A program made the translations under genes and the position numbers. 64,000 nucleotides of DNA, from positions 23,995,213-24,059,212 of the forward strand of contig CM067343.1 of the NCBI GenBank assembly GCA_034190875.2, read 5' to 3'. This document shows, in pieces, positions 1 through 63,620 of the stretch (its first letter is position 1; every line of letters starts with the position of its first letter). The DNA comes from Urechis unicinctus. Its lineage: Eukaryota > Annelida > Polychaeta > Xenopneusta > Urechidae. The notes below the pieces were generated by a model. That model searched no databases. It had not been told where the DNA came from and saw only the letters and a list, made by a program, of their open reading frames with translations.

Positions 1-1200
1 CACAATACATACAATTGGCATCAAGCCTCTCAACAAGACTCAGGCACCAGTTCTGCTGTTTTGCAAGTCTCTGTCATCAGGCTAAAATAATTCTTGGTGA
101 ATAAATCACGGTAATGCAGACCAAACTTCCGTCTTAGGAGAAAACAATACAGCAGCAGTAGAAGGTACGAAAGGAAAAGTGGGACTGGTATAATTTGGCC
201 ATTCAGGCGGGACGTTGAGTTTTTTTACAGACAATGGTGAAAAAGTTGTGTACCTAATAATGCTAGCCACCACAGCTGTCTGGCCTCTGGGTGAACCGAA
301 TTGTTTTTGCGATTGAACAGTTTATTGAGAATAAGGAATTAGATTTACAGTTTACTTTTTTTGAGCAAGCGTATTGCATCCCCGGAGACCTTTACATTCG
401 TAGTCTTCTGGTTAAGTTAATGCGGAACAAAAATTGTCAGCATCATTAAAACAGATAAATTCTTCTTTGTGTGCAAATATTTTTACTAACTGCCATTTGG
501 AGTATTTTCATGCTGTTAGGAAGTGTCATAAAACTTTGAGGGTAGGCATTCAACACAGTTTCTCCCTGACCGAAGCTATTGTTGCCTTGCTGAATTATTT
601 AATGTGGAAAACTAATGAAGCATTCAATCACCGTAGGTCTCCTCATGGAGAACTTTTTATGTCGTCTGGCTTAGTGTTGGTTTATGTATCAGTGCTACAT
701 ATTTGGCACACAATGCTAGGAATAAGCTATTCGCACAATTAAATGCTATTAAAAATGCGTTAACACAATCCAAACGCATTGCAAATAACTATTACTTCAT
801 TGTCAGTTTGATTACCAAGGTTGTCGATACAGACAGGGGCCACGAAATTTAGTTGACCTTCATTTACCATCCTGCTCTCCGTCGTCGTCAAAATTGATCC
901 TCTATATTGATATCATTCATAGTTTCGAACGAACACTGCATAAGGCAAGCTCTATTCATAACATCAATGCCTTGGCAATAAATAAAAGCAACGTCATGCA
1001 TTGCCAAATAAAGCTTATATATTAGGTGCCCCATGATTCTTCGTAAAACGTTATGCGATTTTTGATAAGTTTAGAATGACTTGAATGTTAAACTGTGCTT
1101 TATATGTAGTTACTATGTAGTCAATTTACTCCTTTATAGTGCAAATTCAGCTTGGAAATATTCGTTTATATTGATGATGGTGTTTATCCTACATGCTGCT
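1..1200 (+). repeat. Array copy A, end of pi plus alpha and beta blocks
   Basis: Positions 1-160 loosely match the end of block pi at 20.8-20.9 kb. Positions 160-740 match alpha at 11.37-11.93 kb and 37.7-38.2 kb, sharing phrases such as GTGAACCG..TTGTTTTTGC, GCGTATTGCATCCC and CATTCAATCA. Positions 780-1200 match beta at 21.3, 25.2, 38.2, 44.8, 56.1 and 60.75 kb (ACTGCATAAGGCAA, GTCATGCATTGCCAAAT). Relative to copy B, alpha here has lost about 30 bases near 270, which breaks the frame that stays open in B and E. A 102-codon open frame at 434-742 has no counterpart in the other copies and is not called as a gene. Confidence 0.75.
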
Positions 1201-2375
1201 TACAATTGAGTTTCTATTGGCCAAATCATATGCCTTTAACAATATATCATGCAGATCCATATTTTGTTAAGGAGTCAAGGAACAGCAATGTTTGGGTTAA
1301 TTTTATTTTAGAAATAATTCTCAAGTAGCAATTGTGTTCAAAATCAGATACTTAAAATATTTGGTATTACATAATAGGATACCGAGTAATCCCCGAGTGC
1401 AGGTACACTACAAATCAATTACCAGCATTACAATGAGGCAGATTATGATAACAATTATAGTAACGTTATGACTGTTTGACAGCTAAAGGTATAAGTATGA
1501 TGTTGATGCAATAAGTGAGATACATAACTATGATATGTCTAGGACAGGTTACACAACGCAGGATAAAGCTTATTTAATTGGTCATGACAAAAATGGGATT
1601 AATTTATATACCTATACATGTACAGACATACATATAACAACAACGAGTGTTGACTGACAAAGCTAGAGGAAAGCATGCACATGAGGTGGGATGGCATTGA
1701 AAACGGGAAGTGGGGGAGGGGTTTGGAATAGAGATCAAATCGATGTAATGTCGTTGAAATCTAATCCCGAAAGACAAAGAAGCACTGGTTACCTGACCTT
1801 ATCCGTGCGGGATTTAATTTGGGAAGCCTCTTTCATTCCAAGGAGGACAGATAGAGACTTATGCGATATTTACAAATTTGACTCTGCACAAAATGCGGCT
1901 GGAGCGGTTTCCCACCCCAACCTATGTTTTCGTGAAAATGGAATCCAGAATAAAATTTTCTCTCTGTCTCTGTTGTTTGGAATGGAATATATTGAAAACA
2001 ATTATTTAAACTTTCAGGGATCCAAAGTGGAAACACCACACAGGTAAAATACCTATTGCATACATATCTGATGGTACTGAATGCCGCGAGGGCAGAAACA
2101 AGAGGAAGAGGATTATATGCACAAAGTCTTATGAACTCGTTCAGCGGTGTGAGGGCAATATTCTGGTTGAGTATATAGATGAGAAAAATTAAAGATGGGT
2201 TTATTGTTCAAGCGAGACCTGGAATAGCTTCTTCGTTGTGAGAGTTAAAACCAACTTTCAGCGGCTTAGAAGGTGGCTGCACAGACTCAACACGGCTGAA
2301 GTAATGTTCAAGTCTGGATAGATTTCATCCACAGAACTTATGAGCAGTATTTGTGTAATGGACAGATTCTTTTTT
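1200..2375. other. Unique AT-rich segment without a supported gene
   Basis: I could not place this stretch in any other array copy. A plus-strand open frame of 118 codons (1691-2047) overlaps a 68-codon minus-strand frame (1833-2039). Neither has a recognisable domain and both are within chance length. The segment lies directly downstream, on the minus strand, of the two-exon candidate at 2376-3169, so it could hold that gene's 3' untranslated region. I looked for no more than an obvious polyadenylation motif and do not call one. Confidence 0.4.
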
Positions 2376-3169
2376 TCAAACCAAATCCAGCAGTTTTCTA
2401 GTTTCCAAACATCTCCTTTGTATATGAAGGCTTTCAGAAGCAAACCATTTTGAAAATGGCATGGCCAATAGCTGTTCAATTCTGGAAAAAAACAAAGTAA
2501 TTCAGATAGTGTCTAGTCAAATACATAACACTAAATATTATAATCAATGTTTAAGTACACAACACAAACCAGCAATTTCTGTGAGATTTTTTATATCACC
2601 CTCGACTTAATCATATTCGGTTGGAATTATTGACATTGTCTCTTCAAGCCGTGCACGACGTTTTGTTGATTTATATGTATACTACCGTCAGAGTGGGGCC
2701 ATGTCACTTCATAACTTAGGACATAAGTACGAGGTTTCAAAATTCTGAAGCAAATTATCTTATATAAGAACACCACCAGGAAAGGCTACATTCGACCTGC
2801 GGTTCGGTCGTATGAATCATAAGTGTCATTCTTTTATCTGTATACGATCTATTATCAGACTATGGCACCAAATGAAAAGGAAGTACGCCATACTTCGATT
2901 TAAGTATGAACGCATCAATACGCCATTGAATAATACATAATTTATAATAAGTTGATATACTTGTAAATGAGAAAACATAGACCTTACCTCTGCCATGTTG
3001 ATGTGTGTACAACATTTAAACCATGAACGTCGAAAAACTTGCAGTCATTGTCGAATAATGGAAGTGAAAACTCTTCTAGTGTACGCCCGATATCGCTCAC
3101 AACAACAGATTTGGTTTCAAATGTAGGCCATAATATATCTCCATAATTAAATCGTTCAAAGCCAATCAT
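2376..3169 (-). CDS. Candidate two-exon small gene of unknown function
   Basis: Exon 1 (3169 down to 2988) opens with ATG, with A at -3 and an in-frame TGA just upstream, so the ATG is the natural start. It encodes 60 residues beginning MIGFERFNYG and ending NVVHTSTWQ plus two bases of a split Arg codon, then meets a strong donor, AG|GTAAGG. After an intron of about 506 bases (2987-2482), a long T-rich tract followed by CCAG gives a textbook acceptor. Exon 2 (2481-2376) joins in phase, continues IEQLLAMPFSKW and stops at TGA, for a product of about 95 residues. No signal peptide, membrane segment or known domain is recognised. A second frame of exon 2 stays open to 2258, so an alternative splice or a frameshifted longer protein is possible. 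The canonical splice sites, matching phase and natural amino-acid composition support a gene or gene fragment. No other array copy contains it. It may instead be a terminal piece of a larger gene or a pseudogene. Confidence 0.4.
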
Positions 3170-3365
3170 ATTTCAAAATCGAGGTGTGCCGTACTGGGAA
3201 CGAAGCACGTACTTTGTTTGAGGTACGTACTTCCTTCTGCGGTCAGTCCGCGACCTGGTATGTGCGTCAAACGTTCATCCGTATGTCCGATTAACCAGAG
3301 TGTACCAGTAAGCACAATGTATTCTTATCGTACCTTTCTACGGAACACGCACGGAGCCTCGCGCA
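3170..3365 (-). promoter_or_regulatory. Possible 5' flank or leader of the two-exon candidate
   Basis: This segment directly precedes the candidate start codon on the minus strand. It is visibly richer in G+C and CpG than its surroundings and lies between the candidate exon and a huge microsatellite. The word ACGTACTT occurs twice within about 30 bases near 3207-3232. No TATA box or initiator could be assigned. The only basis for the label is position and composition. Confidence 0.15.
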
Positions 3366-3402
3366 AACACACACACACTCACACACGCATACACACACAC
3401 AC

Positions 3403-3486
<84 letters not shown>

Positions 3487-4142
3487 ATAGAGATATATAT
3501 ATATATATCTATATAGAGATAGATATTCTATTTATATATATATATATTCTCTCTATATATATATATAGAGAGATATATATAGAGAGAGAGAGAGGGAGAG
3601 AGATATCTCTCATATAGAGATCTATATATCTATATATATCTCATCTTTCTCTGTCTCTCTCCCATATTTCTCTCTATACATTTTTAGATATATATAGATA
3701 TATATATTTCTCTCTTATATATATAGATCTCTTTCATAATCTCTCTATATCTGTCTCTCTCTCAACATCTCTCTCTCTCTCTCTGTCTTATCTCTCTCTA
3801 TATCTCTATATATCTCTATCTCTCCTACTCTACATATATCTTCTCTCTCTCTATGAATACATATATCTATATATATTTATAAATATATATATCTATAAAT
3901 ATATGCATATATATTTATATAAATATATATATTGATTGAAATTATATACATATATATAATTATATTTATATAAACATATCTATATATACATTTATATATA
4001 TATACATGCATACATATATGCATACGTGAATATATATATAAGTATGTACATATATATATGTATATATATATATATTTTAACATATATTTATATCCATATA
4101 TATGAATGCATATATATATATATTTATATATATATATATATT

Positions 4143-4185
<43 letters not shown>

Positions 4186-4547
4186 TCCTATATACAGATC
4201 TCTATATATAATATCTCTCTCTATTTATTTAAATCTATATACATATATATCCTTATATTTATATCCCTGAATATTTTATATACATTTTTATATATATATC
4301 ATGTATACATATATGCTTACGTTAATATATATATGAGTTTGTACATATATATATGTATATATACGTATATTTATACACATATATTTATATCTATATATCT
4401 GAATACATATATAAATTATATATATATATATATCTATATATATATATTAATATGTATATATATATACATCTCCTATATATATATATGTATCTATAATATC
4501 TCTATATATCTCTCTATATTCTATATCTATCTTTATCTATCTATATA

Positions 4548-4599
<52 letters not shown>

Positions 4600-4633
4600 T
4601 CTCTTTGTGTGTGTTTGTGGGTTTTTGTGTTTG
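3366..4633. repeat. Compound microsatellite: (CA)n, (AT)n, CT/GA mixture, (AT)n, TG
   Basis: An imperfect CA run (3366-3403) leads into a pure AT run of about 80 bases (3404-3484). Then come roughly 1.1 kb of decayed AT, CT and GA words (TATATCTCTCTC, GAGATATA), a second AT run (about 4547-4596) and a TG-rich tail. It interrupts copy A where gamma would be expected. Open frames of alternating Tyr and Ile across it are repeat translations, not genes. Confidence 0.95.
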
Positions 4634-6378
4634 TGACCATATGTCAGTGTTGCAACTGAACATCTGTGTGGGTGTAAATCATAATCATCTCAGTGTGAGA
4701 ATGTCTGATGTCATGTGAAACGCACAGACACGTGTATTGCATTCATCAGACACTGTGCATTTGTCGTGTCATTCGCTCAATATAATAATGGTCGTAGAAT
4801 AATGCAGCCATATGCAATTTGTGTTTTTTGAAAGTTTATTGTTAATCGCAGAAATCACAGTGTAGTAATTTGTTTACTAGGAGAGTCACGTTGCTATGTC
4901 TGGCTCCGCATCCGCTCAAACACCCGGTGTTTTATCACATGTCTAAAGTTATCGTCTAATTCGTCGTGCCATTGTTATCACGCATTTTCGATGCCACATT
5001 TGGCCTTGTCCTTATGCAAAAAGACTGTTAGCATGTGATTCCTCAACATCTCAGTATCTTTACCAAGCCATAATTAGATCTATTTAGCTTTTCAAATGAT
5101 CGATATCATTTAATGCTTTAAACCGGTCGTATGCCTTATGTATATATCTAAATTTGCCACCGTCCATTTTTAACACCCTTAGTACCTACAGGTGGTTGTA
5201 ACAGTAACCCTCTGTCCAGGCGTTATCAAGCTGCTGGTCCAATTGGTAGCGTTAGTGAATATTGCCCTAGCGTTTGAAATACTGTTCATAACTGAGCTGT
5301 AAATGATGATTCATTGTCGAAAAGCTTCCATTCGTGTGTGTAATGTAATCGAACATATCATAGGTTTACGTGGCTTCTAATGAATGAAACTTCATAAATT
5401 GCTTCATGAGATACTACCTGAACAACATGGTGTCAGGCCAACAACTACATTATGTCGCCTTATAACAGTATTAGCTATGTACGATTCTAATATATGATAG
5501 TATGCGTTTTTTCAGATAGTGCATTTAAACAACGTGTCACTTACCCTATATGTGTTGTCGATATTTGTCTAGAAATTCACTTTGAATGGATGAATTAGGG
5601 TCATTGTGTGCTGACAGCACTTCTATTTAGGCGATATGTGCTCAAGAAATGACGCAAGCGTGTGTTCATATTTGAACATCGATTTAAGAATTTTCATCCA
5701 TCAGCACTGGGATGTCGAGTGGACACCCAGGGCATTTCCTCAAAGATATTCAATGATAATCAATTAAACTATATGTGTTCTATCCCATTAGGTACAAATT
5801 ATAGAAGAAGAACTTTATCGGGTGACAAATTCTCCCAGATTATTGCCCCTATTAGCGACTTTAACCTCGCTACACATCCACATACCTATCATAATTACTT
5901 GTTCATATCACCTATATGAGACAAGCGCGGAAAGGTCATGGTCGGGCGTATATGTTAGGCTTCGGGTTTCATTTTATAAGTTTTTGCACAAACATTTGTG
6001 CTCCGATTTCATCAAGGTTGTTAAAAGGTCACATAATTCTTCTAGATTTTAATAACGTTGCAAAAGTAATTAGTGAGATAATAGTCTATTAATTAGTAAT
6101 TAGTGAGATATAAGTCGCCGTGGATACTCAACATGATGTGACAGCAGCATAGTCATCTCTTTAATGAAATATATACTGGGGTTAATGATGCCCGACGTTA
6201 TCAGTTTAAATGATTACGCCTTTGTGTTTGGTGATCCTCGCCATAGAGCCCATGGTCCCTTCTTCTTTAGATTAGTTTGCCCACGATGCCCAAGAACGTG
6301 TGACTGTTTGCTGTGCAATGCATTTATTCCATTTATTATTGGATTGAATATTGTGGTGCCGTAAAGACGTGTCATTAG
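4634..6378 (+). repeat. Array copy A, blocks delta, epsilon and zeta
   Basis: Delta (4634-5010) carries CATATGTCAGTGTTGCAACT and TCATCAGACACTGT and matches 11.94, 21.93, 25.66, 38.64, 45.41, 56.71 and 61.38 kb. Epsilon (about 5030-5600) matches 12.78-13.38 kb almost throughout. Zeta (5598-6370) carries GGTCATTGTGTGCTGACAGC and the ACATTTGTGCT..GATTTC region, matching 13.38, 22.66, 25.84, 46.14, 57.29 and 62.0 kb. No reading frame is conserved between copies. Confidence 0.8.
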
Positions 6379-9299
<2,921 letters not shown>

Positions 9300-9300
<1 letters not shown>

Positions 9301-9800
9301 GGGAACAACTCAAGCATTCGGATGAGACGCTTCCAGTCAATTGATTTGTGCTACGAAGAAAGTCCTTAAAGGTGATTGCGCTGGATGAAGCGCAATTGAA
9401 CGGTTAGTGAATTAGTCTGCAAATATAATCATGGCCGAGAGCTTGACGTTTTATTACTCTAGACGGTGGACAGAATAAATCAATAGTTCCACAGCGGTAG
9501 CTATCATTAATCGCGAACTTATTAAGTTTGTAAATGCCTGCTATATGATAGTAACTTCCCTGCCCCTCAATCTGATATAGTGAATTGAATCTTGCCATAC
9601 AATCATCGATTTTGTTTTGTGTAAGAAGTAAGTTGCTTTGACTTTCAACCCACGCTTTGGTGGTTGGATTGCAATGTAGGCCATATATGGCATACAGGTG
9701 GCTCAATTCAATCCCTAGTTACTGGGGCTCGCAACTTGCCAAGGGCAACGGGTTGGTGCCCTGTGCCAGCTTCGCAATAATAATAACCCATTACCTCCAC
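9300..9800 (+). repeat. Lambda block, decayed tRNA-promoter-like repeat
   Basis: This matches 29.9-30.6 kb and 40.69-41.1 kb. It contains TGGTGGTTGGATTG and GGTGGCTCAATTC, which resemble degenerate RNA polymerase III B-box words, followed by ACTGGGGCTCGCAACTTGCC. The better-preserved versions at 30.2-30.6 kb suggest derivation from a tRNA-related SINE. Here both boxes are mutated, so activity is unlikely. Confidence 0.45.
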
Positions 9801-10690
9801 ATAAAACCACTACCAGCGGTTAAATTGTCCTCATGATTAAGCCGCTACTAGTGTTCTGCCAAGGATTAATGTGTTTCGCGAGTCACAGTATCGCAAGGCG
9901 CACTGCTATGTCTGGAGGACAACAGACGTACTTTTGTACTGTTTAAATTACAGTTGGTAAGTGATTTTTGTGTCAATTAGATGGCAGTATCACTGCCACG
10001 AGCTGCTTTTTGTTATTTATTAAAGCCTTAGAATAATAAAGGTCGTTTGTTCCGATGAAGGATGATTGTTAGTTAGTCTTTGAATGTCATTATTGCTCCC
10101 TATTGTGGTCATTTTATTCGCCCAGTTTGCGCTTGTACTTATGATTGTTTGCTCAGCAATTCAATTTGTGTGTATGTTTGCATGGCCATCGTTTTCAACC
10201 GCAAAAAAAACAGCTAGCCATTTGCAAATAGGTTCATATTTTCTACTGTTTATCGCAAATCTATTGCTGTGTGCATGGTTGTTGCGTTCAATGCGATCAA
10301 AAGTTGTTTTTATCACCATACATCAGACACCACATTACAATGAGCGCAGTTTTTACGGTGGGAAGTAGAGTAGGACCAGGGCGGTAACAGCCGCTACATA
10401 TTTCAGCTTACTAAACCTTACTCTGCCAAGTGGAAACTTTTACATCAACTTACAATGGTTAACCGCATTTCTATACACGTAGTATTGGGTTATGACGGGA
10501 ATCAAGGTTTGGTCGCACGTAGATCCGGGAGAGGTCACGTTAAGGTTTAAGGCCAGGTCTTTGCGGAGATTAAGGTTAGGGAACATCGTGGATTGATAAT
10601 ACATCATAATATTCATGGTATTGCTAGATTTGTCAAAGATTAGCATTTTAAACAGAAGATAGAGATCAGAGGGCGATAGATATCATTATA
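9800..10690 (+). repeat. Array copy A, mu block
   Basis: This matches 17.18-17.7, 23.3-23.96, 31.57-32.2, 41.9-42.5 and 57.9-58.62 kb. Shared words include TTCATACTTTCTACTGTTAA-type sequence, GTTGTTGCATTC and GGTGGGAA(C/T)TAGAGT. A 94-codon hydrophobic frame (10084-10368) corresponds to different, broken frames in the other copies, so it is treated as chance. Confidence 0.75.
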
Positions 10691-11305: not shown

Positions 11306-14000
11306 CACTTATAATAGCAACTCGAAGAGTTCCTCCAGAATAGAATCCTATTAAGACGCATTTGTAGAATGCACGACAGGAATAGAGAGACTGTTTTGAT
11401 ATTTCCATTCAAGCAGAACTTTGAACTTCATAATTTCACAGACATTGGTGAAGAGGTTTTATACCTAATCTTGCTAGCCACTACAGGACGAACAGTAAAA
11501 AAGATGCATCTTAAGCTGTCTGGCGTATGGGTGAACCGTTTGTTTTTGCAAATGACAAATTTGAGGGGGATAAGGAATGTAATGAACAGTCTACTTTTGT
11601 GCGTAAGCGTATTGCATCCCCGAAGGCCTTTTACATTTGTAGTGCTCTCGTTAAGTTAATGTGGAACAAAAATGATGAGCATCATTAAAAGAGATATATC
11701 TTATTTTATTAGCCAATGTTTTCGCTAACTGCCATTTGAAATATTTTCATGCTGCTAAGAAGTGTCATAAAACGTCATTCAATACAGTTCCTCTCTGAAG
11801 TAGCTATTGTTGCCTTGCTGAATTATGTATTGTGAAACACTAATGACGCATTCAAGTACTGCAGGTCTCCTCATTTTCAGCATTTCGCTTTGTCTGGTTC
11901 AGTGTTGGATTAGGTCAATTCTACATTTCGGCACGTGTTAGTGTTGCAACTATATATCTTTGTCTGTGTGAATCATAATCATGTCAGCGTGAGATGGTTT
12001 TATGTCTTGTGACACGCATTGGCTCGTGTCTGGCTTTCATCAGACACTGTTTATTCGTCGCTTCATTCACTCATTAAAATACAAAGTATGGTCGTAGAAC
12101 AATGCAGCCATCGGCAATTTGAGTGTCTTAAAAGTTAACCACAGTAATCATCTTTCTGTGGGTGATTTTCTTGGAAAGCCATGTACTATGTCTTCCTCCG
12201 CATTCGCCCAAAACTCCTCTGTGTTATCACAAGACAAACGTTATGTTCGTCGGGCCACTATTATCACGCATTTTCGGTGCTTGTTTGGCCGTGTCCTTAA
12301 ACAAGAAGAATATAAACTTGTCGCGGACATTTAAATACGATGTAATCTAAATCGGCAATTTGCTTAATTATGTATAATATTCCATCATTAGTAAAACAAA
12401 ACAATAACCAATGATCGTTGCCATTAAATACTTGGCTGAAGCGACCGAGTGATTTAACAAAAAATAAATTGTACCCTATAAAATAGCCTGCCATGAACTT
12501 TGCCATTTTGAAACCTTATGTGTGACTTGCTTTTAAAATGTTCGGGTTTATTCTTATCAGTCGTCGTCCTTGACCCCATGTGTTGTGTATTGTTACATTT
12601 GTATTTTGTGTACAGTTATGTATCGTTTCGTGTTGCGTTTTAATATAATCATCATACACGATCATTCCAACTAGTGCTGATCTAGCACGTTTTGTACGGT
12701 ATAAAATCTAATAATGTTTCATGTTACAAATAACAACATGTTGTTTTATGCAAATATTAGATGACAAACAACGCAACTCTGTTAGCATGAGATTCCTCAA
12801 CATCTTAGTATACTTACCAAGCCATAATAGTTCAATCCAGCTTATCTAATTATTGATATTATTTAATGCTTTAAGCCGGTCTTATGCCTCATGTACAGAT
12901 CCAAAACGGTCAACGCCCACTCTGAACACCCTTAGTACCTCCAGGTGGTTCTAACAGCAGCCTTTTGGCCGAGCGTCATCAAGCTGCTGGTCCAATAGGT
13001 AGTGTTAGTGTATATGGCCCTAGCGTTTGAAAAACTGTTTGTTCATAACTAAACTTGTTGATGATGATTTATTGTCGAAAAGATTTCATTCGGGTGTGTA
13101 ATGTAGTCGAACATAGCATTTGTTTATGTAGCGCCTAATGATTGAAACTTGATAAATTAGCTCATGATACACTAGATGAACAGCATAGTGTCAGGACAAC
13201 AACTAACTAAAGTCGCCTTATACCAGCATTGACTATGTAAAATTCTAACTAGTGCTATTTTAATTGACCGCTAGTGATATAATGCATTTTTTCTGCTAGT
13301 GCATTCAATTACCGTTGCCACTTACCCTATAGGTGTTGACCGATATTTGTCTGGTGATTTACTATTAATGGATAAATTATGGTCATTGTGTGCTGATAAC
13401 ACTTCCATTTAGGCGATATGTGCTAAAGCACTGACTCAAGCGTGTGTTTATATTTGAACATCGATTTAAGAATTTTCTTCCATCAACACCGTGATATTGA
13501 ATGGACACCTGTAGCATTACTTCAAAGATGATAAATGATAATCAATTAAACGATCTGTGCTATATCCCATTAGGTACAAACTAACGAAAAAGAACTGCAT
13601 CGGTTGAAAAATTCTCCCAGATTATTGCTTCAAGGAGTCGGCTTTAACCTCCTTACATATCCACGCACCTATCATAATTACTAAGTTTATATCACCTATA
13701 CGAGACAATAAGCGCAGAGAGGGCGTGGTGAGACGTGGAGCGGGCGTAGAGTACAGGCTTCAGGTTCCTTTTAATGAGTCTATGCGCAAACATTTGTGCT
13801 GTGATTTCCGCAAGGTTGTTAAAAGGTCACATGATTCATCTCGATTTTAATAACCTTGCAAAAGTGATCATTGAGATAATAGACTATGTTATTAGGAATT
13901 TAACTGACAGCTTTCGTTCATTAAGTTCATTAAGATGAAGCTTATCGTCGTTTTACTCAACCTGATGTGTCAGCAGCATAGCGATCACTTTAATGAATGC
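11306..14000 (+). repeat. Array copy B, blocks alpha, delta, epsilon and zeta
   Basis: Alpha (11369-11930) is the best-preserved copy and holds a 96-codon frame (11369-11659). Part of that frame is also open in copy E (37724-37939), sharing VWVNRLFL, SVLHP and PFTFVV. Beta and gamma are missing: alpha runs straight into delta at about 11935. Epsilon (12780-13380) and zeta (13380-14000) match copy A closely. The shared alpha peptide is about 64% identical by my count, roughly what neutral divergence of the DNA would give, so no gene is called. Confidence 0.8.
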
Positions 14001-52030: not shown

Positions 52031-52225
52031 ATCGGAATTTGAATACGATGACAATTATAGTTAATATGAAAATGTCGGTTTTGACGATGGTGACGACAGT
52101 AATGATGATGATGACGACGACGACGATGATGATGATCAGGATGATCATGATGATCATGATAATCATGAACGTGATTATGATCATGATGTTCATGATGTTC
52201 ATGATGTTCATGATGATCATTATCT
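52031..52225 (+). repeat. (GAT)n tract of copy F with TGATCA palindromes
   Basis: Orthologous to the tract at 34.69 kb by its lead sequence. It begins as GATGATGACGACGAC and then changes to ATGATCATGATG and CATGATGTT units, creating several TGATCA palindromes. Confidence 0.88.
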
Positions 52226-53460
52226 TGACATTGCTAAATGTTCAGCAAAACTAGAGTATATAATCCTATCATGACATGAGCCATGTTTCTATTTTCATAG
52301 ACAAAACTAAAGTTGGGCAATTAGTTGTCTTCCAGGTTTCGGCATGTATACATCAGCACACAAATCCTCCATTTAAAGTGGGTTCCTACGCATATCAATG
52401 CATATTGCCAAAACATGTGCTGAGCCAGCAAGACGCAACTGTACAAATTTTGCCCATATTCTCAGCAGAGTCGGCCTCTTAGATTGTCACAGTAGATAAT
52501 ATTCCCGGTAAGCTAACCCAGATAAATGCATATACAATATGCTTTTATGGAGCATCAAGTGGCCACATTAATTAGAAAAATGCAAATAGAATTCATGCAG
52601 TTCAGTAGTCGAAATAAACCCCAACTTCTCGTTCACTGAAATGACCCAGCTGTATTTTATGATTGTCTGGACACCAATGAATTAAATATGCCATGTAATG
52701 AATGCCTTTCACTGCGGTCGTGTCCTTACTTTCCGTTTAACGCTTGGTTGATGATCCTCGTTGGCAGAGTAACCCCATGGCAGAATGGATTAGTGAGATA
52801 ACATAATAGCTAAAGGGAATGAGATTGACAATATATGTGTGTAATCGTATGTGCAACATATACCTGCTCTGATCCGTTATAAATTCAAAAGTCGGCGACA
52901 GATACACCTATACGCCTTTGAATGGATGCCTTGCATATCAAACTTGCTGTTGTCAATTCTAACTGCTTCCACATGCCATCAATGTGTCGGGGTCAGCGAT
53001 TATCTCGCTTATCGCGGATACGCACGTATTTGTGAATATTTTTCAGCTAGTATCACAGTCGCACCATAAGGACTAGAAAAATGATGGAACAAATGAGGTT
53101 TACTAACCACATTATTGTTGGATCTCATTAGCACGTTAATGTGACCATCATTGTCATCTGAGATCGCTGGGGAATACAATGAGGCAAGAATGGTTACAAA
53201 TGAAATGACAAATTTAAAATGGTACCTTAGTGGCAGCATAGGAACAGTTCAGCTTATTGCCACGGTAGATTGCAATGCCTAGCAAACCGTTGTCATTAAG
53301 TACAACCACATTTTCAATGAGGTTACTCAAATATGCTGCCGCTTTATCGTGGCAACTGCTGGGCAACCGCACAATACAATCTTACCTTCCTCACCCAAAC
53401 GTTTCGACATTATTAATTGTCATAGTTTCTCCAATTCAATCCGTGCAACTTTTATGAGGA
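52226..53460 (+). repeat. Array copy F, remaining nu blocks
   Basis: Positions 52450-52810 match 17.92-18.24 and 43.1-43.44 kb (ACGCTTGGTTGATGATCCTC is identical). Positions 52820-53300 match 18.25-18.75 kb. The first 200 bases and the last 150 look unique. Short frames are not conserved. Confidence 0.75.
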
Positions 53461-53860
53461 CATGGGTGTATAATAGTGCTTTATGCGTTCATCAAACAAT
53501 TCGATGCCGGCATTGACATGGGATTTCCTCTCACTCTCACTAGCACTTTTCCCTCACTGTCTCATCATCGGTGATAACAGACGTTTGCGTACATGCCTCA
53601 GATAAATTGATCCAATGGTCATCGCAATCCGCTTTTGGTTACATTATATAAGATCTTGACCGGTGCTGTCATTGGCCTGAGCAGGGCATATACGGGAAAT
53701 AATCTTTATTGCATCATGTGTGGCGACAAGGTGCATGTGGCGCTGACCTTGAAGTTTGCATTGCTTATTACACCGATGAACATTAGATCATTTCTCATTA
53801 ACCGAAAACTTTTATTCGGGATTAATCCCTATCCAACGTTTTGCTGGTTTATAAATATTT
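53460..53860. other. Short unique segment with an open frame
   Basis: A plus frame of 78 codons (53635-53871) starts at a GTG-type or upstream codon and reads hydrophobic with Cys pairs (NNLYCIMCGDKVHVAL). It runs into block rho at its end, where copy D has no such frame. No splice sites of quality were found. Not called as a gene. Confidence 0.3.
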
Positions 53861-55900
53861 CAGTAATTTAATCTACATTAATTGCATTATTATTCACCGT
53901 CTGAATGGCATTGTATCGACCGACCAGTACCCTTTAAAATAGCTCCAACGAATCAAAACCGTCTTGTTTGCTTTTTCGCAAGTTTAACAACATGGAATAA
54001 ATTATTAGTGAGTTAAATGGCTAAGCTGAACATTGTAGATTTGTGACAGATATATTCCGTTTTAAGGGGCAAGCTTATCATTGTCATCAGCGCTATTCAC
54101 ACTCAATATCACATTACCATAGGATATATGTCTTTTTGATATAAGTCAACGAATCGTGAAGATCGTTTGCTGTTTTACAATTCAATAACTCTTCGTCTTC
54201 TCTCCTCTCCATGTCTGAATCGATTGATGATGCGCATGAATTTGTGACTAATCCAATAGCTATTAAATCTTGCCGTTTACTGGAATTGGTTGGCAGTTGT
54301 TTGGTTGTATTGTCATAATGTGGAGTTTCCGATTCAAATGCTTGATAATTGGTAAATCATAATACGGTCCGTGTCAACAGTCCGCAAACAAAGGGAAATA
54401 TCATGGTGTGTGGAATCGGATTTATTGACTGTGTTTAAAAACTTTGGTTTACGCTAATTATCTGTGTTAATTGTAATTGAATGCTGTTGTGAACACACTT
54501 GTCAAAATAGGATTTCCATGTCCAGGGTATGTGTTGTAGCGTACCCACCCTGCTCCACCTTCCATCCCACCCAAAGATGTATTGAGTACGTAGACCCCAA
54601 AATGGCTGCAGAAAATAGACCGCATGCACTGTAGAACCGAGGTCATCCAAACTATTCCAAAGACCCTGTCATTATAAAATCTTGACAGATAGATAGAGGA
54701 TGCACGAGACAATGTTACTATCTAGGAAGGAAATAAGAGCTATCTATCAAGTGCAATTATATGAAATAACAAACAAACACACGATGTAACAATAACACAA
54801 AAAGCTACAAATGCAGAAATGACGCTAGTGTACATGAGATGAAGCAAATATGATAGATATATAACTGTGTGCCATTGCCGAAATACCGTTTATGTGACAA
54901 TTTACAATCGAATTATGCATGCACAAAAGGGCAAAGGCTCATCACGTATTCGATTGCATGAATTTGGAGGGTATAATTGGATCATGCAATCAAACATGAA
55001 CAGTGATATCGCAGCTGTGCAGAATCTAAAAATATATTACCTCTTGTGCCCCTTGGGTCGACAAGAAAGTTCTAATTCATCATTATTTACAACGAATCCA
55101 CTAACTTACTTGGAAATGCCTTGTTCTGTATATATACCCTACATAAGTGTATGTAGAGGAGACAGGAAACTGTAACGAGACTTCATTAGAAAAGTCAACG
55201 TCACAACCAGGTAACACATACATAATAGTTTAATTCATTACTTACCATTAAGCATAACAACGAGATGTATTGTGAAAGATTGCGCTAAAAATCATCACAT
55301 CCAGCACAAGCTTTGCTCTGTTCTAGGCAACGAAACAGTGTTTAAAAAGTACAGTGGTGATATAATTTATCCAATTAAAATACGCCGAGAAATGTCCCGA
55401 AATCACATGATACGAGAATGATAAATATTAATTTCGTACACAAATTCTAATTTAGGCAGTAAACCAATTGCTGCTTAGACTCGTTTTTCAGGTATGTCAT
55501 TAAACTGCGCAGTGCGAGCAAACAAAAAAAGCACCCTAATCGATTCCCAATGCAATAATTCATTTAATGCTTCAATAACACGATTGAGTCTAAAATTAGT
55601 ATACTGCAATTCCAGTTCAGAGATTTTATTGCTGATTCTTTTTATGTGATACCTTTTATCGTGCACAAACATATGCTGGTTAACATGGCTATCGGCTTCT
55701 TGTCGGGAAATGAACGTTCAACAACATCGATAAATATAAATGTCAGGGATATGCCGGATTTAAAAGCCTCTTCTCACTCCATGCACAGTCATAGCCAATA
55801 TTTTATTCGGGGATAAGGCGTCTAATGAAACGTGGTTGTCTCATTCGAACCCCCATATATTACAATCATTGCCCGATGTCCCCTGAATTTTAATGGTTCC
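53860..55900 (+). repeat. Array copy F, blocks rho, xi and omicron
   Basis: Rho (53840-54400) matches copy D. Xi (54400-55440) matches B, D and E. Omicron (55450-55900) matches B and D. Positions 55126-55462 are the upright counterpart of the inverted segment in copy G/H at 60.0-60.35 kb. No gene is present. Confidence 0.8.
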
Positions 55901-57945
55901 AAATGAACGGCTATCACACTATAACCAAAGAGTTTAAAGTTACGCTAAGAGGGCTCACTTCGAGGGGCTCGGCGGTGATCGCTTCCCTAATTGCAATACA
56001 TTGCAATCTTAAGGTGGCGCTACCATGACACAAACACAAGCAAATGGGAATATTTGACTGACATCACTGCGATTAGTGAGAGAGTCTTTAATTACCATCC
56101 TGGTCTCCATCAAGCATTTTCTTCTTTAAAATTTGCCCCCATTATTTATGATATCCGACTACAGCATGAACACTGCATAAGGCAAATTCAATTCGCAATA
56201 AAAAATCCTGAATTATTGATCAACGCTATGTCATGCATTGCCAAATCATGCTTATATGATATATGTCCGTCCATTCCCAATCAATGTGTCTGTGTGTTTT
56301 GATATGTGCACAATCACTTAGGTTTACTACTGTCCTATATCAGTAGTCAATTGTCACTATGTCTCAATTAACTCCTGTATATTGCAAATATTTGCATATG
56401 TTGTGGCTCACACCCATCCACAACATAACTCACCGGTGGCTCAACCACCCACAGCATAACTCACCGGTGGCTCAACCATCCGCAGCATAATTCACCGATG
56501 ACTCACAGCCCCCCGCAGCATAACTCATTGGTGGCTCACAACCAGCTGTAGCATAACTCACGGTGGTTCATTACCACCCGCAGCAAAAAAATGCATGAGA
56601 TATCCTATAACGTTTTATGACGTTGATTCAATGTGAACACCTGAGAGCCACAAACATGCCTCCTCAGTGATTACCCTTCGATTATTTTACGTAGTTTATG
56701 ACTGATCCATTGCCCCTATGACAGTGTAGCAATTGTACATCGGCGTCGGTGTGGATTATAATTATCTCGGTGTTAGCTGAGTTCATATCATGTGACTCTC
56801 AAAGGTTCGTGTCTGGCTCTCATCAGACTCTGTTCAATCGCCGCTTCGTTCACTTATTAAGATACAAAAGATGGTCTTAAAACAATGCAATCTCTTGTAT
56901 TTGCGATACCTCTTTCGGCTAGGTTCAGATACACGGATATCAAAACCTTGTCTTGGACATTTAAATACGATGTAATCTTAATCAGTAGTTAAAATGGACA
57001 ATGGTCGATGCCACTTGGATAGATCGACATAATGATTTAATAGAAAAGACAATTTACACTATAAAATAGCTTGCCGTGGTTTTTAAAACGTCTTGTCTGA
57101 TATGCATTCGAATTGCTCGGGATTATCCTTATCATAAATTGCCGGTATTCACGTTGAACAATTAAGTCGCCTTATGCTATTATCGGTTGTGCATGATTCT
57201 AACAAGAGTGGTAGGATACCGTTGCAACTTTATCATTTAGGCATGGATCGATATTTGTACCAGTGCTTTTCCATCAATAGGCCAATTAGGGTCATTGTGT
57301 GCTGACAACATTTCAACCCAGGCGCTTAGTCCTAAATAACTGACTGCAGCTTGAACGGGGTGGGGGTGGAGGTGTGGCATCTGTTGTGAATCTATGCACA
57401 TCCATTTGTGCTGTGATTTTGTAAAGCGACAACAAAAGACACACATTTCTTCTTGACTTTCATAACCTTGCAGAAGTAATTAGTTAGATAAAATACTACT
57501 TTATTAGGAATTGGATTGACATTTTTCTTTATTAAAAAGCGAGTTTATCGTCGTTTTCTCGTAATATAATGTGACAGCAGCAAATCATCATCCTAATTAA
57601 GGCAATGCTGGGTTTAATGACGCTTCATTTTATCAATCATAATTTTGTGTATATGCTGCTTTAAAGTTTCGCTTCCACAGATAATTATCAAACGCCCTGC
57701 AGATCTATTCCATCAGTCGTCAAACCACTTATTGGTTGCGGCTCTTCAGATCAGACTAACACGCATTGATAATCAAGTTCTATTCACGTGTCTAAAGCAA
57801 ACTTTTTACTGTAGTAGGCACTCACTCACCCTTCTTTCGTACATGCAAGAGATTCCCCATAACTTTTTATGACTTTGATTCAATGTGAGAAACTGAGCGT
57901 CTGAAACATGCCCGTCACGCTCCCTCCCGTACATTGTTACTTGTC
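55900..57945 (+). repeat. Array copy G, beta to short eta
   Basis: The lead (55960-56090) is shared with copy F only. Beta, gamma and early delta (56096-56885) are about 96% identical to copy H (60748-61548). From 56900 the sequence instead follows copy F (CTAGGTTCAGATACACGGAT, GTAGTTAAAATGGACAATGG), after a deletion of about 190 bases. Zeta is 57240-57620 and eta 57645-57900, in the short form joining mu directly through GTCACGCTCCCTCC. Pi, alpha and epsilon are absent. Confidence 0.85.
56405..56590 (+). repeat. Gamma minisatellite, about five units
   Basis: Five units of 29-34 bp in the same order and with the same variants as in copy H: two ACCGGTGGCTCAACCA units, one CGATGACTCACAG, one ATTGGTGGCTCACAAC and one CACGGTGGTTCATT. 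Identical variant order shows recent common origin. Confidence 0.93.
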
Positions 57946-58725
57946 AAATTAAAGTTGTTAAGTGATTTGTGAGAAGAAACACTAATATATTACCAATATG
58001 ATGGCAGTATCACAGAACCGAGCTCTAGCAACCTTAATATCTTTTAATTAATGCTGTAGACTAGTAACGTTAGCCTTATCAGATCAAGGATGCTTGTTAG
58101 TCGTTGGCGTTGAACGAAGCTCGATTTAAATCTTTCTTGCCTCATGTCATGGTAATTTTATACCTCCAGTTCGCCCATGAACTTGTGCAATTTGATTTGT
58201 GTGTCCGTCTACATGGTCATCTTCTTCATTCAAAACAATGCAACAAGGCAGATGCAAATTGGTTCATACTTTCTACTGTCAACTGCGAGCCTATGCTGTT
58301 GGCAAGGATGTTGCCTTCAATGCCACAACGTAGTTGTTTTTATCACCATACATTCGATACCACATAACAATTAGAACAGTGTTCACGGTGGGAATTATAG
58401 TGGGTTCAGGAAGGAATCAGCCCCTACGCATTTCAGTTTGCTAGGCCGTCCTCTGAAAAGTGGAATAGTTTAATCAACAAACATAAATCACCGAATTGCT
58501 ATAAAAGAAAAGTAAGGATAATACGGGAATCATGGCGGGGTCACACGCCGGTTCCTAAGAGGTCAGTGTAAGGTTTAAGGATAGGTTATTGTCGATGTAA
58601 AGGTAGGGGACAATCGGTGATTCGATCTGAACTCTATTCCGAAAACACTCCTAGGTGCATAGGGATCAATTGTCAGAACGTAACAATCTGAAGCATCGGG
58701 TACGGTATTGATACGGTACTTTATC
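57945..58725 (+). repeat. Array copy G, mu block
   Basis: Mu matches copy C best (23.3-23.96 kb): TAAGTGATTTGTGA, TTGGCAAGG..GTTGCCTTCAATGCCA, CAACAAACATAAATCACCGA. Two overlapping frames (58104-58367 and 58177-58374) correspond to broken frames in the other copies. The block ends in AT-rich sequence running into a GA repeat. Confidence 0.8.
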
Positions 58726-58774
58726 AAGAGAGATAGAGAGAGCGAGAGAGATGAGAGAGATAGAGAGAGAGAGA

Positions 58775-58809
<35 letters not shown>

Positions 58810-59056
58810 TAGGAGCAGAGAGAGACACAGAGAGAGACAGGAGAGAGAGAGGGGGAGAGAGAAAAGAGAGAGGAGAGTGGGGGGGAGAGGAGACAGGGGT
58901 ACAGAGAGATAGAGATAGGGGAGAGAGGGAGGAAGCGAGAGAGCGAGAGATAGAGAGGAGAGACTAGAGAGAGAATATATATATATATATGGCCTTATGA
59001 ATATATATATATATATATATTATATATTATATAAATAGTTTTTACATATATATATA
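58726..59056. repeat. (GA)n then (AT)n microsatellite
   Basis: About 250 bases of purine-only GA repeat with GGG and GCGA interruptions (58726-58974), a strong strand asymmetry. Then come AT runs to about 59056, separated by GGCCTTATGA at 58991-59000. Confidence 0.95.
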
Positions 59057-59735
59057 TTTGCCACGAGCGCGACCTTTAGTGGACAAACTGCCAACCTTTC
59101 GTAGACTTGGGTCCACGAAAGGATATTATGTCCACCTAAAGTCAACGCATATTTTCGACCAAAATAATTGGAAATACTTAGGTTTGACCATTCAAATGTG
59201 AAAGCCGAGTTTTAGTAACGTAAAAAGATAATCTTTCACACGTGACTTCTTTGGATTTTTAATATACTAGCGCGAAAGAAAATTTTAACAACTAACCATT
59301 CGGTGTACTTAACCCACAAAACCTCAATATTTTCCATACAACCATACTATACTACTCCGACCAAATTGCCAAAATAATGTTTAATCATGTGGTGTTGGAA
59401 GTATTTATTTGAAAAATAAAATATTTGAGATTATTTTTAAATTTTCAGTACCGATTTACTCCCTATTTTTGTCTCCGTATATTCATCAATCTACGCTAGT
59501 TGAATTAGGAATCGCGAAATGCTACCAATGGTTTCATAATGATCACCTCTACACCCACAATATTATGTTTCTAACATCCATGAATGTCTGAAAATGATTT
59601 AAAGATTTTCTGGTATTTCAACACCTATTCGAACATATATATGGGCACGCAAAGGTTTGGTTTTCTACGTATAAATTAGTGCCTTACCCTTTCGTGGACG
59701 ACATTTCGAGGACAAAAAAGTATATACCAGTAATG
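59057..59735 (+). mobile_element. Probable non-autonomous element with nested inverted motifs
   Basis: This segment has no match in the array and is compositionally distinct. Its left end contains four related 12-base words in nested inverted order: CCTTTAGTGGAC (59073-59084), CCTTTCGTAGAC (59095-59106), then after a TTGG loop GTCCACGAAAGG (59111-59122) and GTCCACCTAAAG (59130-59141). The inner pair would form a 12-base stem with one G-T pair. At the right end CCTTTCGTGGAC recurs (59688-59699), the perfect inverse of GTCCACGAAAGG, followed by TTTCGAGGAC. Terminal palindromic arms around about 600 bases of AT-rich filler suggest a MITE-like or other non-autonomous DNA element. A 60-codon frame inside (59409-59591) is too short to judge. 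No target-site duplication could be fixed because the left flank is an AT microsatellite. Confidence 0.45.
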
Positions 59736-59879
59736 CAAAGATTTTTTTGTTCGCGTTTTAAACTATTTCATTTATCAATTACATATGCAGAATAAATAAT
59801 TTTGAATAATTAATGAGAGCAAAAAATGTGCTATAAATAAAAATTTGTTCCAAGAATGGTTGGAGTCAAGGAAAGGTTG
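59736..59879. other. AT-rich spacer before the GAT tract
   Basis: About 140 bases with no array match. May belong to the preceding element or be its flank. Confidence 0.3.
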
Positions 59880-59941
59880 TAATGATGGTGCTGCTGCTGA
59901 CGATGACGACGACGATGAAGATGACGACGAAGACGATTATA

Positions 59942-59978
<37 letters not shown>

Positions 59979-59992
59979 CGATGATGACATTA
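59880..59992. repeat. (GAT)n/(GAC)n trinucleotide repeat
   Basis: About 110 bases of GAC, GAT and GAA triplets giving an Asp/Glu-rich frame. Unlike the tracts at 34.69 and 52.08 kb, its flanks do not match nu, so it may be independent or relocated. Confidence 0.92.
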
Positions 59993-59999
59993 CAAATGT

Positions 60000-60346
60000 T
60001 GAGCACACCTCGAGTTACTGCGAAAAATGGCATTTGTGTACGAAATTAATATTTATCTATCTAGTATCATGTGATTTCGAACACTTCTGCCATGGCGTAT
60101 TTTAATTGGATACATTATATTACCACTGTACTTTTCCAAAACTGTTCCGTTGCTTAAAATAGGGCAAAGCCTGTGCTTGATGCGATGATTTTCAGCGCAG
60201 TCTTCCACAACACATCTCGTTGAAATGCTTAATGATAAGTTATTAAATAAATTATTATCCATGCGCTACCTTTCTGCGTAAGCAACATGACGGTTACTCT
60301 CATAATGAAGTGTCTCATCTACATATACTAATGGAGGGTATATATA
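60000..60346 (-). repeat. Inverted piece of xi/omicron block
   Basis: Read on the minus strand, 60345 down to about 60007 matches 55126 to 55462 in order: CTGTTCTGTATATATACC, the CTTCATTA words, CACAGGCTTTGCCCTATTTT, AAAGTACAGTGGTAATATAA and TAAATATTAATTTCGTAC. At 60347 the plus strand resumes with AAACCAACCGCTGCTTAGAC, the homologue of 55463 onward. The right breakpoint is therefore sharp. This is the only inverted array piece seen in the window. Confidence 0.85.
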
Positions 60347-60747
60347 CAGAACAGTAAACCAACCGCTGCTTAGACTCGATTTTTAGGACGTCATTGAACC
60401 GCCACAGTACGAGCAAACAAGAAGCAATCTCATCGATTCCCAATGTAATAATTTATTTAATGCTTCCATTACACTATTTAGTATTAAATTAATAAACAGC
60501 AATTCATGTTCAGAGATGCGATGATTCTTTTTTATGTGACACAGTTTATCGTGTACAAACATAGGCTGGCAAACATGGCTATTGGCTTCTTGTCGGGATA
60601 TGAACTTTCTACAACACCGATAAATATAAATGTCAGGGATATGCCTTTACGTATTCCATACACAGCCTTAGTCAATGATTAAATTGGGGACAAGGTGTCT
60701 AATGAATGGTGTTGGTCACATTTGAACCACACAATCATTGCCCCGAC
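60347..60747 (+). repeat. Omicron block before copy H
   Basis: Matches 55463-55890 and 20.03-20.42 kb (CATCGATTCCCAATG, CGGCTTCTTGTCGGGA type words). It ends abruptly at CCCCGA|CCATCCTGG, skipping the 180-base lead (GGCGGTGATCGC..) that precedes beta in copies F and G. Confidence 0.8.
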
Positions 60748-63620
60748 CATCCTGGTCTCCATCAAGCATTTTCTTCTTTAAAATTTGCCCCCATTATTGA
60801 AATTATGATATCCGACTACAGCATGAACACTGCATAAGGCAAATTCAATTCGCAATAAAAAATCCTGAATTATTGATCAACGCTATGTCATGCATTGCCA
60901 AATCATGCTTATATGATATATGTCCGTCCATTCCCAATCAATGTGTCTGTGTGTTTTGATATGTGCACAATCACTTAGGTTTACTACTGTCCTATATCAG
61001 TAGTCAATTGTCACTATGTTTTCGATTAACTCCTCTATATTGCATATTCAGCTTTGATATATTCGTTTGTGGCTCACACACATCCACAGCATAACTCACC
61101 GGTGGCTCAACCACCCGCAGCATAACTCACCGGTGGCTCAACCATCCACAGCATAACTCACCGATGACTCACAGCCCCCCGCAGCATAACTCATTGGTGG
61201 CTCACAACCAGCTGTAGCATAACTCACGGGTGGTCCATTACCACCCGCAGCAAAACAATGCATGAGATATCCTATAACGTTTTATGACGTTGATTCAATG
61301 TGAACACCTGAGAGCCGTAAACATGCCTCCTCAGTGATTACCCTTCGATTATTTTACGTAGTTTATGACTGATCCATTGCCCCTATGACAGTGTAGCAAT
61401 TGTACATCGGCGTCGGTGTGGATTATAATTATCTCGGTGTTAGCTGAGTTCATATCATGTGACTCTCAAAGGTTCGTGTCTGGCTCTCATCAGACTCTGT
61501 TCAATTGCCGCTTCGTTCACTTATTAAGATACAAAAGATGGTCTTAAAACAATGCAAACCTCTTCAATTTTGGTGTCTACAAAGTCGATTGTATACTGCG
61601 TAATCACAGTATAAGGATTTATGCACTGGGAAAAGCACGCTTTTAGTTCTGAGTCGGCATCCGCTTTAATCTCTTGTGTCTAATCACATGACAAGCGTGT
61701 TCTCTATTTTATCGTGTCGTTATTATCAAGCATTTTCGATACCCGTTCAGAAGCGCGAATATTAAAAATTGTCGTAGCCATTTCAATACGATGTAATCTA
61801 AATCGGCAAATTGCTGTCTTTGATACTACATTATATCACTAGTACAAAATAGAGAATGATCGTAGGACAATCAACTAAAGTCGCCGTATACCAGTATCGG
61901 TTATGTATGATTCTAGCTAGTGCTAACATAATTGTTCGCTAGTCGTGGAATACCGCTGCCACTTTATCCCATGAGAGTTTATCGATATTTGCACAGGTGC
62001 TTCGCCATCAATGGGTAAAAAAGGGTTATTGCGGGCTGATAGGGAGGGTGGAGGTGTTGCGTCTTTTGTGAATCTATGCAAAACCCTTTGCGCTGTGAAT
62101 ATTAAAGGGACAATAAAATCACACAATTCTTCTCAATTTAATTACCTTGCAAAAGTTATTAGTAAGATAAAAGGCTACTTTATTAAGAATTTGATTGACA
62201 GATTTCGTTAATAAAGGGCGACATTATCGCCGTTTTCTTTCAATATGATTTGACAGCAGCATAGTCAGCACTTTATTTTAGCAAAGCTGGAGTTAATGAC
62301 GCTTCACGTTATCAATTTTAATGACGCCGCTTTAGCGTTTGATGTTTCTCTTCATGGAAATACGTTTGCGTCGGTTTGTTTGCCTGCGTTGCGCATGAAC
62401 TTGGGACTATTTGCTATTGTGCCGTTTGTTACTGGTTTGAATACCGTAGTGCAGTAATGACATGTCATTAACAACAAGTCAGTTATGCATTGTGCGAAAT
62501 AATTTTAGGTATAAGCTGCTTTTAAGGATTGCTTTCTCAGATAATTCTCAAAATTCCTGCAGAACTATTCCATCGGTCGTCCAACAACGTATAGGTTGCG
62601 TCTCTTCAAATCAGACAAACACGCAATAACAATCAAAGTCTATTCACGTGTCAAAAGCTATCTGATAATTGTAGTAGCCACTCATTAACCCATCACTTGT
62701 AAATGCAAGAGATTTCCCATAATGTTTTATGGCGTTGATTCAATATGAACAACTGAGCGCCGGAGGCATGCTCGTCATCTTAAAGCCTAAACGCGATTAA
62801 ATCCTTCGATGGGTATGTTGTACTCTGCATAAAAATTACTGTGGGAGTATTTAATTTGCAAAAGATATCAGCATAGATGCTACTCAGTGTAAGTGTTGGT
62901 GATATAAAATCAAAATATCTAACCTGATCAGCACAAAAACAGCTGTGTTAAATCAGAAGATATGACATGTCATCTAACCTCTTTAGTGTTATTAGCTGAC
63001 TAACTCTCCATAAGAATAAACTACTCGTGTGTGTTTGTACAGCACCTTATAGGCAATCATGCGGTTAACGAGAATATAATCCTTGAGACAGATTACATTT
63101 GTAATAAATTAAGCAACTCATGTATGCCCCTTTGATCGCATCACTTTTATTGAATGAATATTAGTGAGAAGCGCACCACAACTTTATGACATACGCCATA
63201 ATTCTATATCATGAACATACGTAGCAAGATCAGACTTAATTAATGTTTTCACCACATCTTATGTATGTTCAAAAGCCGTATTTTTCTTTGATACGTTTTA
63301 TGCAATACAAGTAGTTCATATACAGCCATAGTATGCATGATACTATGTACTAAGCATCGAAAAGAGCCCGGTGAGACGCGTTGAGTCTGCAAATTTGATC
63401 CGCTCTTGCTCTTACAAAACACTATATGTCTCCATTATTTCCAAGATTGCCATTTAATTGGAATGATTCTACACCACTCAATCAAATACATGATGCTATT
63501 ATGAGCTACAGTAAGCAATCAATCAACATGATGTCATGACTCGAAGGGTAAGGTCCAATAATTCCTAGCCAAGGCAATTATATTAAATGCATAACATGCT
63601 AACTTCTTTTCCCTGAGTTT
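60748..63620 (+). repeat. Array copy H, beta to long eta
   Basis: Beta, gamma and early delta (60748-61548) are about 96% identical to copy G. Delta continues to 61800, intact where G is deleted. Zeta is 62000-62460 and eta 62510-62990 in the long form. The extension (62990-63615) follows copy F at 85% rising to about 97% in the last 100 bases. The second conserved motif is at about 62721 in the form AATGTTTTATGGCGTTGATT. No supported gene is present. Confidence 0.85.
61076..61258 (+). repeat. Gamma minisatellite, about five units
   Basis: Same five-unit order as copy G with a handful of substitutions. Followed at 61277 by the conserved ACGTTTTATGACGTTGATTC motif. Confidence 0.93.

Follow-up and report, generated by a model that had tools for sequence, protein, structure and literature searches.

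Introduction

Segmental duplications are usually catalogued from 90% identity and a length of 1 kb upwards, and local tandem duplication commonly spreads genes. Large units also recur in macrosatellites such as D4Z4, DXZ4 and NBL2, which, in the sections of PMC8122249 devoted to them, have units of up to a few kilobases. Here we analyse a stretch of 64,000 nucleotides from Urechis unicinctus, C2:23995213-24059212 (C2 is contig CM067343.1; the genome assembly has 1.19 Gb in 926 contigs), which we call the window, and which is occupied by an array of partial copies of a non-coding segment of about 11 kb. A preliminary description had seen in it a decayed higher-order tandem array of a unit more than 10 kb long, containing no gene and resembling no repeat family that could be named. 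The core of that description, a heavily decayed, gene-free array with a long unit, is borne out, and at a single locus. We propose that the array is probably a passive, near-neutral cluster of tandem segmental duplications, produced by repeated local duplication, decay and some gene conversion.

Array organization

Self-alignment of the whole window with BLASTN resolves eight partial copies, A to H, of the approximately 11-kb non-coding segment, arranged head to tail. They start at or before 158, at 11,364, at about 20.6-21.3 kb, at 24,985, at 37,581, at about 44.6-44.8 kb, at about 55.8-56.1 kb and at 60,746, which agrees within about 0.5 kb with the starts reported earlier (1, 11.3, 20.9, 25.0, 37.7, 44.65, 55.9 and 60.7 kb). 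We divided the segment by hand into eight blocks, a to h, which recur in fixed order and the longest versions of which sum to roughly 13 kb. On these hand-set blocks none of the eight copies carries all of a to h at full length, as the preliminary description had also concluded. The copies, with their assignment to the two subfamilies x and y defined below, and three features within them are as follows, in window positions.

158..10594, + strand: copy A, blocks a, b, c, d and e, subfamily x (from self-BLAST diagonals and block alignments)
11336..20563, + strand: copy B, blocks a to h, shortened, subfamily x
21347..24984, + strand: copy C, blocks a, b, c, e, f and g, subfamily y
24985..37244, + strand: copy D, blocks a, b, c, d, e, f and h, subfamily x
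37581..44813, + strand: copy E, blocks a to h, shortened, subfamily x
44814..56083, + strand: copy F, blocks a, b and c, then an unmatched stretch, then f, g and h; subfamily y in a to c
56084..60745, + strand: copy G, blocks a, b, c, e and h, subfamily y in a to c; carries an inverted fragment
60746..63621, + strand: copy H, blocks a, b and c, subfamily y
60015..60353, - strand: inverted block-h fragment in copy G, the sole inverted array piece found in the window
56094..56902, + strand: exchange tract between copies G and H, 95.6% identical to 60746-61570
1174..3366, unstranded: dispersed transposon of 2.2 kb in copy A, followed by a microsatellite to about 4596

Copy A is broken up by the transposon insert and the long microsatellite, and copy B has counterparts about 95% alike at C2:23.50-23.52 and 23.54-23.55 Mb. 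The sequence ahead of copy C (20564-21346) has no second copy inside the window; nor does the stretch at 47757-51152 in copy F, apart from its own minisatellite, although a part of it (48000-48599) recurs in the locus. Past copy H the array goes on outside the window, where it is inverted from about C2:24.0667 Mb. Microsatellites with a period of up to 12 account for 4,171 bases of the window. Among the 59,829 bases that remain, 44,838 (74.9%) have a second copy inside the window alone, and 56,058 (93.7%) have one once the comparison is extended to the flanks and to 210 kb of this locus, in line with the earlier statement that nearly all sequence outside microsatellites is derived from the array. 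The largest stretch without a second copy is the dispersed transposon at 1174-3366.

Beneath the approximately 11-kb unit, Tandem Repeats Finder (period up to 500) found no short monomer array, only microsatellites and short minisatellites; this program would not see arrays whose identity is below about 70%. As no monomer was found, the array is not a higher-order satellite, and the term "higher-order" in the preliminary description is a misnomer.

The shared order and orientation of the copies, also reported earlier, stand up to quantification. Self-BLASTN at an expectation value (E) of at most 1e-10 gives 145 non-self pairs, 141 direct and four inverted; at E<=1e-6, with microsatellite-dominated pairs taken out and partners at least 3 kb apart, it gives 185, of which 181 are direct and four inverted. 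All four inverted non-microsatellite matches involve the fragment at 60015-60353. Collinearity was assessed on the direct matches only, with the copies cut at the starts given in the preliminary description. The heaviest increasing chains take up 98.0% of the length of the 181 direct matches and link all 28 copy pairs; in 500 shuffles of the order the share is 62.8% on average and 69.6% at most. The least collinear pair, G and H, reaches 83%. A control with the reversed sequence and no microsatellite filter returned 58 rows at E<=1e-6; these are presumed to be low-complexity matches.

A single locus in the genome

Six array probes, namely blocks a, b, d, e and h and the part found only in copy F, were searched for genome-wide. 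All 113 matches, which include the window copies, lie at C2:22.926-24.299 Mb, on both strands: 16 for block a, 30 for b, 21 for d, 15 for e, 25 for h and six for the copy-F-only part. These counts are lower bounds, and the search skips very common words. A sub-probe of block d (16 matches, left out of the total) agrees. As a positive control we used a probe from the transposon insert (1300-1899), which gave 743 candidates, 40 of which were scored and found on 15 contigs including C2; the search is thus able to see dispersed repeats. None of the 113 array matches falls outside the locus, and as far as the search can tell this excludes dispersed elements in other orders, the very outcome that the preliminary description had named as the one to look for against its own account.

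Divergence and layers of duplication

At the level of the unit, most copies in the window are 65-85% identical. Trees of blocks a, b and c each separate subfamily x (copies A, B, D and E) from subfamily y (C, F, G and H) with a support of 1.000, copy B being absent from the trimmed block-a tree. Kimura two-parameter (K2P) distances in blocks b and c are 0.30-0.49 between the subfamilies and 0.14-0.34 within them, with 0.12 for G and H in b. Blocks f to h of copy F lie close to those of B and E, though its blocks a to c belong to subfamily y, which indicates that the copies are mosaics. Over the tract of about 0.8 kb listed above, G and H are 95.6% alike, while two other nearby segments of the same pair are about 80% alike; the tract is best read as the product of a recent exchange.

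Similarity is layered beyond the window as well. Matches of at least 500 bp and at least 88% identity, reaching 97%, connect a cluster at 23.985-24.076 Mb with another at 23.467-23.61 Mb, and are largely collinear as far as 24.043 Mb, with rearrangement past that point. One 7.4-kb segment has two further copies, at 95.7% and 94.9%. The right flank contains, from about 24.0667 Mb, an inverted copy of window sequence that is 90% identical over 5.7 kb. The left edges of the two clusters are mostly 69-76% similar, except for two short pieces, at 84-87%, that match elsewhere. Farther away, six stretches were fetched from 23.13-23.25 Mb; three of them hold both block d and block e, in d-to-e order in all three, and the longer matches of these stretches to the window are about 65-82% identical. 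The nesting of these layers implies that duplication recurred at several times and sizes.

Two further observations concern these alignments. Inverted array sequence lies at the right side of both clusters (C2:24.0667-24.0775 Mb and C2:23.604-23.615 Mb), and two of the stretches inverted there share 95% identity across 3.4 kb. Over all array alignments in the window, the transition/transversion ratio is low (0.80 by count) for what is apparently a near-neutral locus.

Sequence constraint

The array appears to have decayed near-neutrally, with little or no detectable constraint. When changes are counted on a tree, no slow window of 20 columns is seen in any of seven stretches from blocks a to e and h (two in h; 10-25 copies each; p 0.20-0.84), in which the ratio of variance to mean is 0.90-1.12. 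Seven further overlapping tree tests, five of them with older or distant copies (p 0.08-1.0), and 15 further stretches with 4-12 copies (p 0.23-0.97) gave none either, and no p in the 29 tests is below 0.07. Windows of 50 to 150 columns around blocks f, g and h are not slow in the tree test. In blocks a to c, where five to eight copies cover each column, invariant runs reach at most 7 columns, the 95th percentiles of the shuffles being 8-10.

Several results pull in the other direction. In a column-shuffle test the longest invariant run exceeds the 95th percentile in block d (18 versus 17), f (20 versus 14), g (34 versus 22) and h (22 versus 14), and the slowest 24-column window has fewer changes than the 5th percentile in e (3 versus 4), f (1 versus 3), g (0 versus 1) and h (2 versus 3). 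Windows of 60 columns are slow in two of 14 stretches, at 63495-63554 (p 0.004) and 34504-34563 (p 0.011). One block-h stretch of the seven has an unchanged run of 12, the 95th percentile being 11, and parts of blocks d and h show a column autocorrelation of 0.15-0.20. To these must be added the frame in block g that is described in the following section.

The column-shuffle test is the cruder one, with few copies per column in d to h, and it ignores differences in the number and age of copies; its departures were not repeated at 20 columns by the tree-based tests with more copies. Both slow 60-column windows have five copies each, and the lower p becomes about 0.06 after correction for 14 tests. 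They may reflect chance or a weakly constrained piece. The autocorrelation could be due to the mosaic ages of the copies. Conserved elements in d, e and h had also been suggested by distant copies at 22.9-23.3 Mb that match the probes only partly. This suggestion was rejected: the older copies that were fetched contain no significantly slow window and no frame that is open in most of them.

Coding potential

Local tandem duplication being a common route for the spread of genes, the array might be the remains of a tandem gene family, or of a giant gene of repeated exons, in which introns or spacers remain and exons are lost or tiny. A conserved frame under purifying selection was not found among 377 open reading frames (ORFs) of at least 40 codons, one weak case in block g aside. 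Their ratio of nonsynonymous to synonymous substitution rates (dN/dS) has a median of 0.80, and the frame is intact, on average, in a fraction of 0.125 of the alignments, which upholds the earlier statement that reading frames are not conserved. Gap lengths are multiples of three in 15.8% of 925 gaps. Over 29 windows the median dN/dS is 0.73, and the lowest value, 0.19, lies in block g. A pairwise codon-score scan (windows of 119 alignments) has a best z of 4.24. Open frames shared in the block alignments are at most 21 codons long in a to c and 28-60 codons in d to h, where fewer copies are aligned. In Pfam, 150 of the 264 listed window ORFs, and 149 of the 151 ORFs listed for parts that have no alignment inside the window, gave single weak matches only; the two sets partly overlap, and the best E over both is 0.0032. 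Genes around the locus were checked only in the fetched stretches, some of which read N.

The case for a coding remnant comes from a 53-codon frame in block g, at 18060-18218 and 52640-52798 (also 43278-43418); the block contains a shared open run of 52-60 codons as well. With a pooled dN/dS of 0.29-0.32 it ranks fourth and fifth among the 377 ORFs. Nonsynonymous divergence is lower than synonymous in 14 of 15 gap-free copy pairs and equal in the other, and the stop codon is kept in all nine copies that reach its end, among 10 examined. The frame is intact in four of seven covering alignments for each of 18060-18218 and 52640-52798. However, it stands only at about the 1st percentile of the 377 ORFs (0.317), with three others ahead of it, its changes by codon position (13/7/16) form a weak pattern, and its region is not slower than the surroundings (tree test, eight copies, p 0.41-0.62). 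One of the 10 copies lacks 17 bases, another has a single-base gap at the first codon and two are partial; Pfam is empty for the frame at E<=5, and block g itself is absent or partial in most copies. After the ranking, the empty Pfam result and the finding that the region is not slow, we set the frame aside as coding and regard it as a weak lead, possibly of chance origin. We consider descent of the array from a gene family or a giant gene improbable.

RNA potential

A non-coding RNA, microRNA or PIWI-interacting RNA (piRNA) locus, for which the number of copies would count more than their sequence, is a little less probable again. A long, multi-copy, partly inverted cluster at a single locus could feed small-RNA pathways; the right flank has the inverted copy with 90% identity over 5.7 kb, and alignment folding places 27 of 652 windows at an RNAalifold z below -3. 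The top structure windows, however, consist mostly of short helices, and a longer one in block h derives from three copies, one of which is a misaligned TA repeat. Of the hairpin that several copies share in block c, two central pairs are missing from copy H and one is kept in copy B by G-U pairing, with no two-sided change (pairs judged by eye). Blocks a to c have no invariant run of mature microRNA length, the longest being 7. Searched against Rfam, the window has no match at gathering scores, and the 57 matches at E<=5 all overlap tandem repeats by coordinates; a tRNA scan of the window found none. A single-strand scan lists 97 hairpins at -22 kcal/mol or lower. Taken together, Rfam, alignment folding and inspection by eye gave no convincing conserved hairpin and no known family, and for the roles as non-coding RNA or small-RNA cluster that the preliminary description had put forward, the sequence-level tests produced nothing convincing.

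Assembly and dispersed elements

Unpurged haplotypes or misjoined reads could mimic recent duplication. Long matches of 88-97%, largely collinear to 24.043 Mb, connect the two clusters, which lie about 0.5 Mb from each other, and the assembly has a 100-base N gap at 23457792. Such an artefact could account for the top layer of duplication at most. Most window copies differ by 15-35%, far above what is expected for alleles, the left edges of the clusters are likewise too divergent for alleles for most of their length, and the 7.4-kb segment has not one but two further copies at about 95%. We consider an origin of the array in the assembly very improbable. That the blocks are dispersed transposons lying in the same order by chance is hardly credible. 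One insert (1174-3366) is such an element, but the order is collinear, all matches of the six probes, counted as lower bounds, lie at one locus, and Pfam finds no transposon protein among the scanned window ORFs.

Inserts, minisatellites and other elements

The transposon insert at 1174-3366 has 39 other scored copies genome-wide at 89-91% identity, among the 40 scored of the 743 candidates. When copy A is compared to a homologue 86% alike, the match stops short of 1174-3258, which is consistent with insertion, target-site duplications not being resolved. A listing of empty sites for insertions was tried and abandoned, as it was swamped by microsatellites. The sequence at 59058-59403 has no second copy in the examined part of the locus and contains a palindromic hairpin of -43 kcal/mol at 59061-59150; it may be a small transposon with inverted repeats.

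Block a of copies C, F, G and H contains a minisatellite of 31-33 bp (21646-21799, 45167-45271, 56403-56585 and 61069-61256), and a motif of about 60 bp near it recurs in block c (for example at 23204-23271). Another minisatellite, of 49 bp and 6.7 copies, lies at 49621-49948, in the part of copy F without another copy in the window.

In the sequence fetched from the left part of the locus, 109 ORFs of at least 90 residues were listed and 15 scanned with Pfam. The sole ORF to pass the cut-off, a Pox_A32-like ATPase, belongs to an insert at C2:23.525-23.535 Mb, inside the array and about 0.5 Mb from the window, which also has polymerase-B-like, endonuclease and integrase matches below the cut-off. 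From this combination of genes we take it to be Maverick/Polinton-like. Two other weak Pfam matches in the left part fall below the cut-off.

Discussion

The organization of the array suggests how it may have formed. An ancestral non-coding segment of about 11 kb would have been duplicated head to tail, probably through misaligned (unequal) recombination between neighbouring copies or a similar misalignment. Duplication would then have recurred, first of single units and subsequently of clusters of several units, very roughly 130-160 kb in size. In the intervals each copy would have decayed on its own through substitutions, deletions, the growth of microsatellites and the insertion of transposons, and local exchange, in the form of gene conversion, would at times have made neighbours alike again. 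The sequence-based tests revealed no working gene or RNA in the array, which probably lacks a function.

A bolder proposal, to which we attach a low probability, is that C2:22.9-24.3 Mb is a long-lived duplication hub in which something has, over a very long period, kept re-duplicating apparently gene-free DNA, leaving layers that range from near-identical to about 65-70% alike and hardly any visible sequence constraint. Candidates, offered with the same reserve, would be a feature causing recombination or replication fragility, or selection on how much DNA there is and not on its sequence, for instance for chromatin or for an RNA specific to the lineage. Should repeated activity of the locus be seen in related species, what makes some gene-poor regions re-duplicate could be tested directly; otherwise, the cluster is an ordinary one, though it has lasted unusually long. 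Tandem duplication, conversion and decay are recorded here in layers at a single place, with up to 25 copies per block from which substitution, deletion and exchange can be measured in DNA that looks near-neutral.

A literature search found no paper on such a locus, which does not show its absence from print, and we compare it here with the systems closest to it. Alpha-satellite higher-order repeats, as presented in the relevant part of PMC8122249, likewise have two levels of repetition, the larger of which is younger and more alike; they differ in that the lower level here is a unique 11-kb segment with no short monomer. Macrosatellites, in the portion of PMC8122249 that treats them, share with the array head-to-tail units of more than 1 kb at one or few loci. 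Compared with that portion's account, the unit here is larger, at about 11 kb, with few copies per cluster and irregular truncation. Nor are the copies homogenized: K2P distances in blocks b and c span 0.12-0.49, and inside the window only the tract of about 0.8 kb shared by G and H is near 96%.

The statement that the array resembles no repeat family was too strong, as it fits local tandem segmental duplication with decay. Two differences should be noted. The customary 90% is reached between clusters (7.4 kb at 95.7%), whereas most units in the window are only 65-85% identical, and, unlike segmental-duplication clusters, the array yielded no gene in the sequence scanned. Other features are shared with such clusters: the copies are intrachromosomal, direct with some inverted, their ages are nested, neighbours have exchanged sequence, and non-transposon units stand head to tail at one locus, with 98% collinearity and 113 of 113 probe matches in place.

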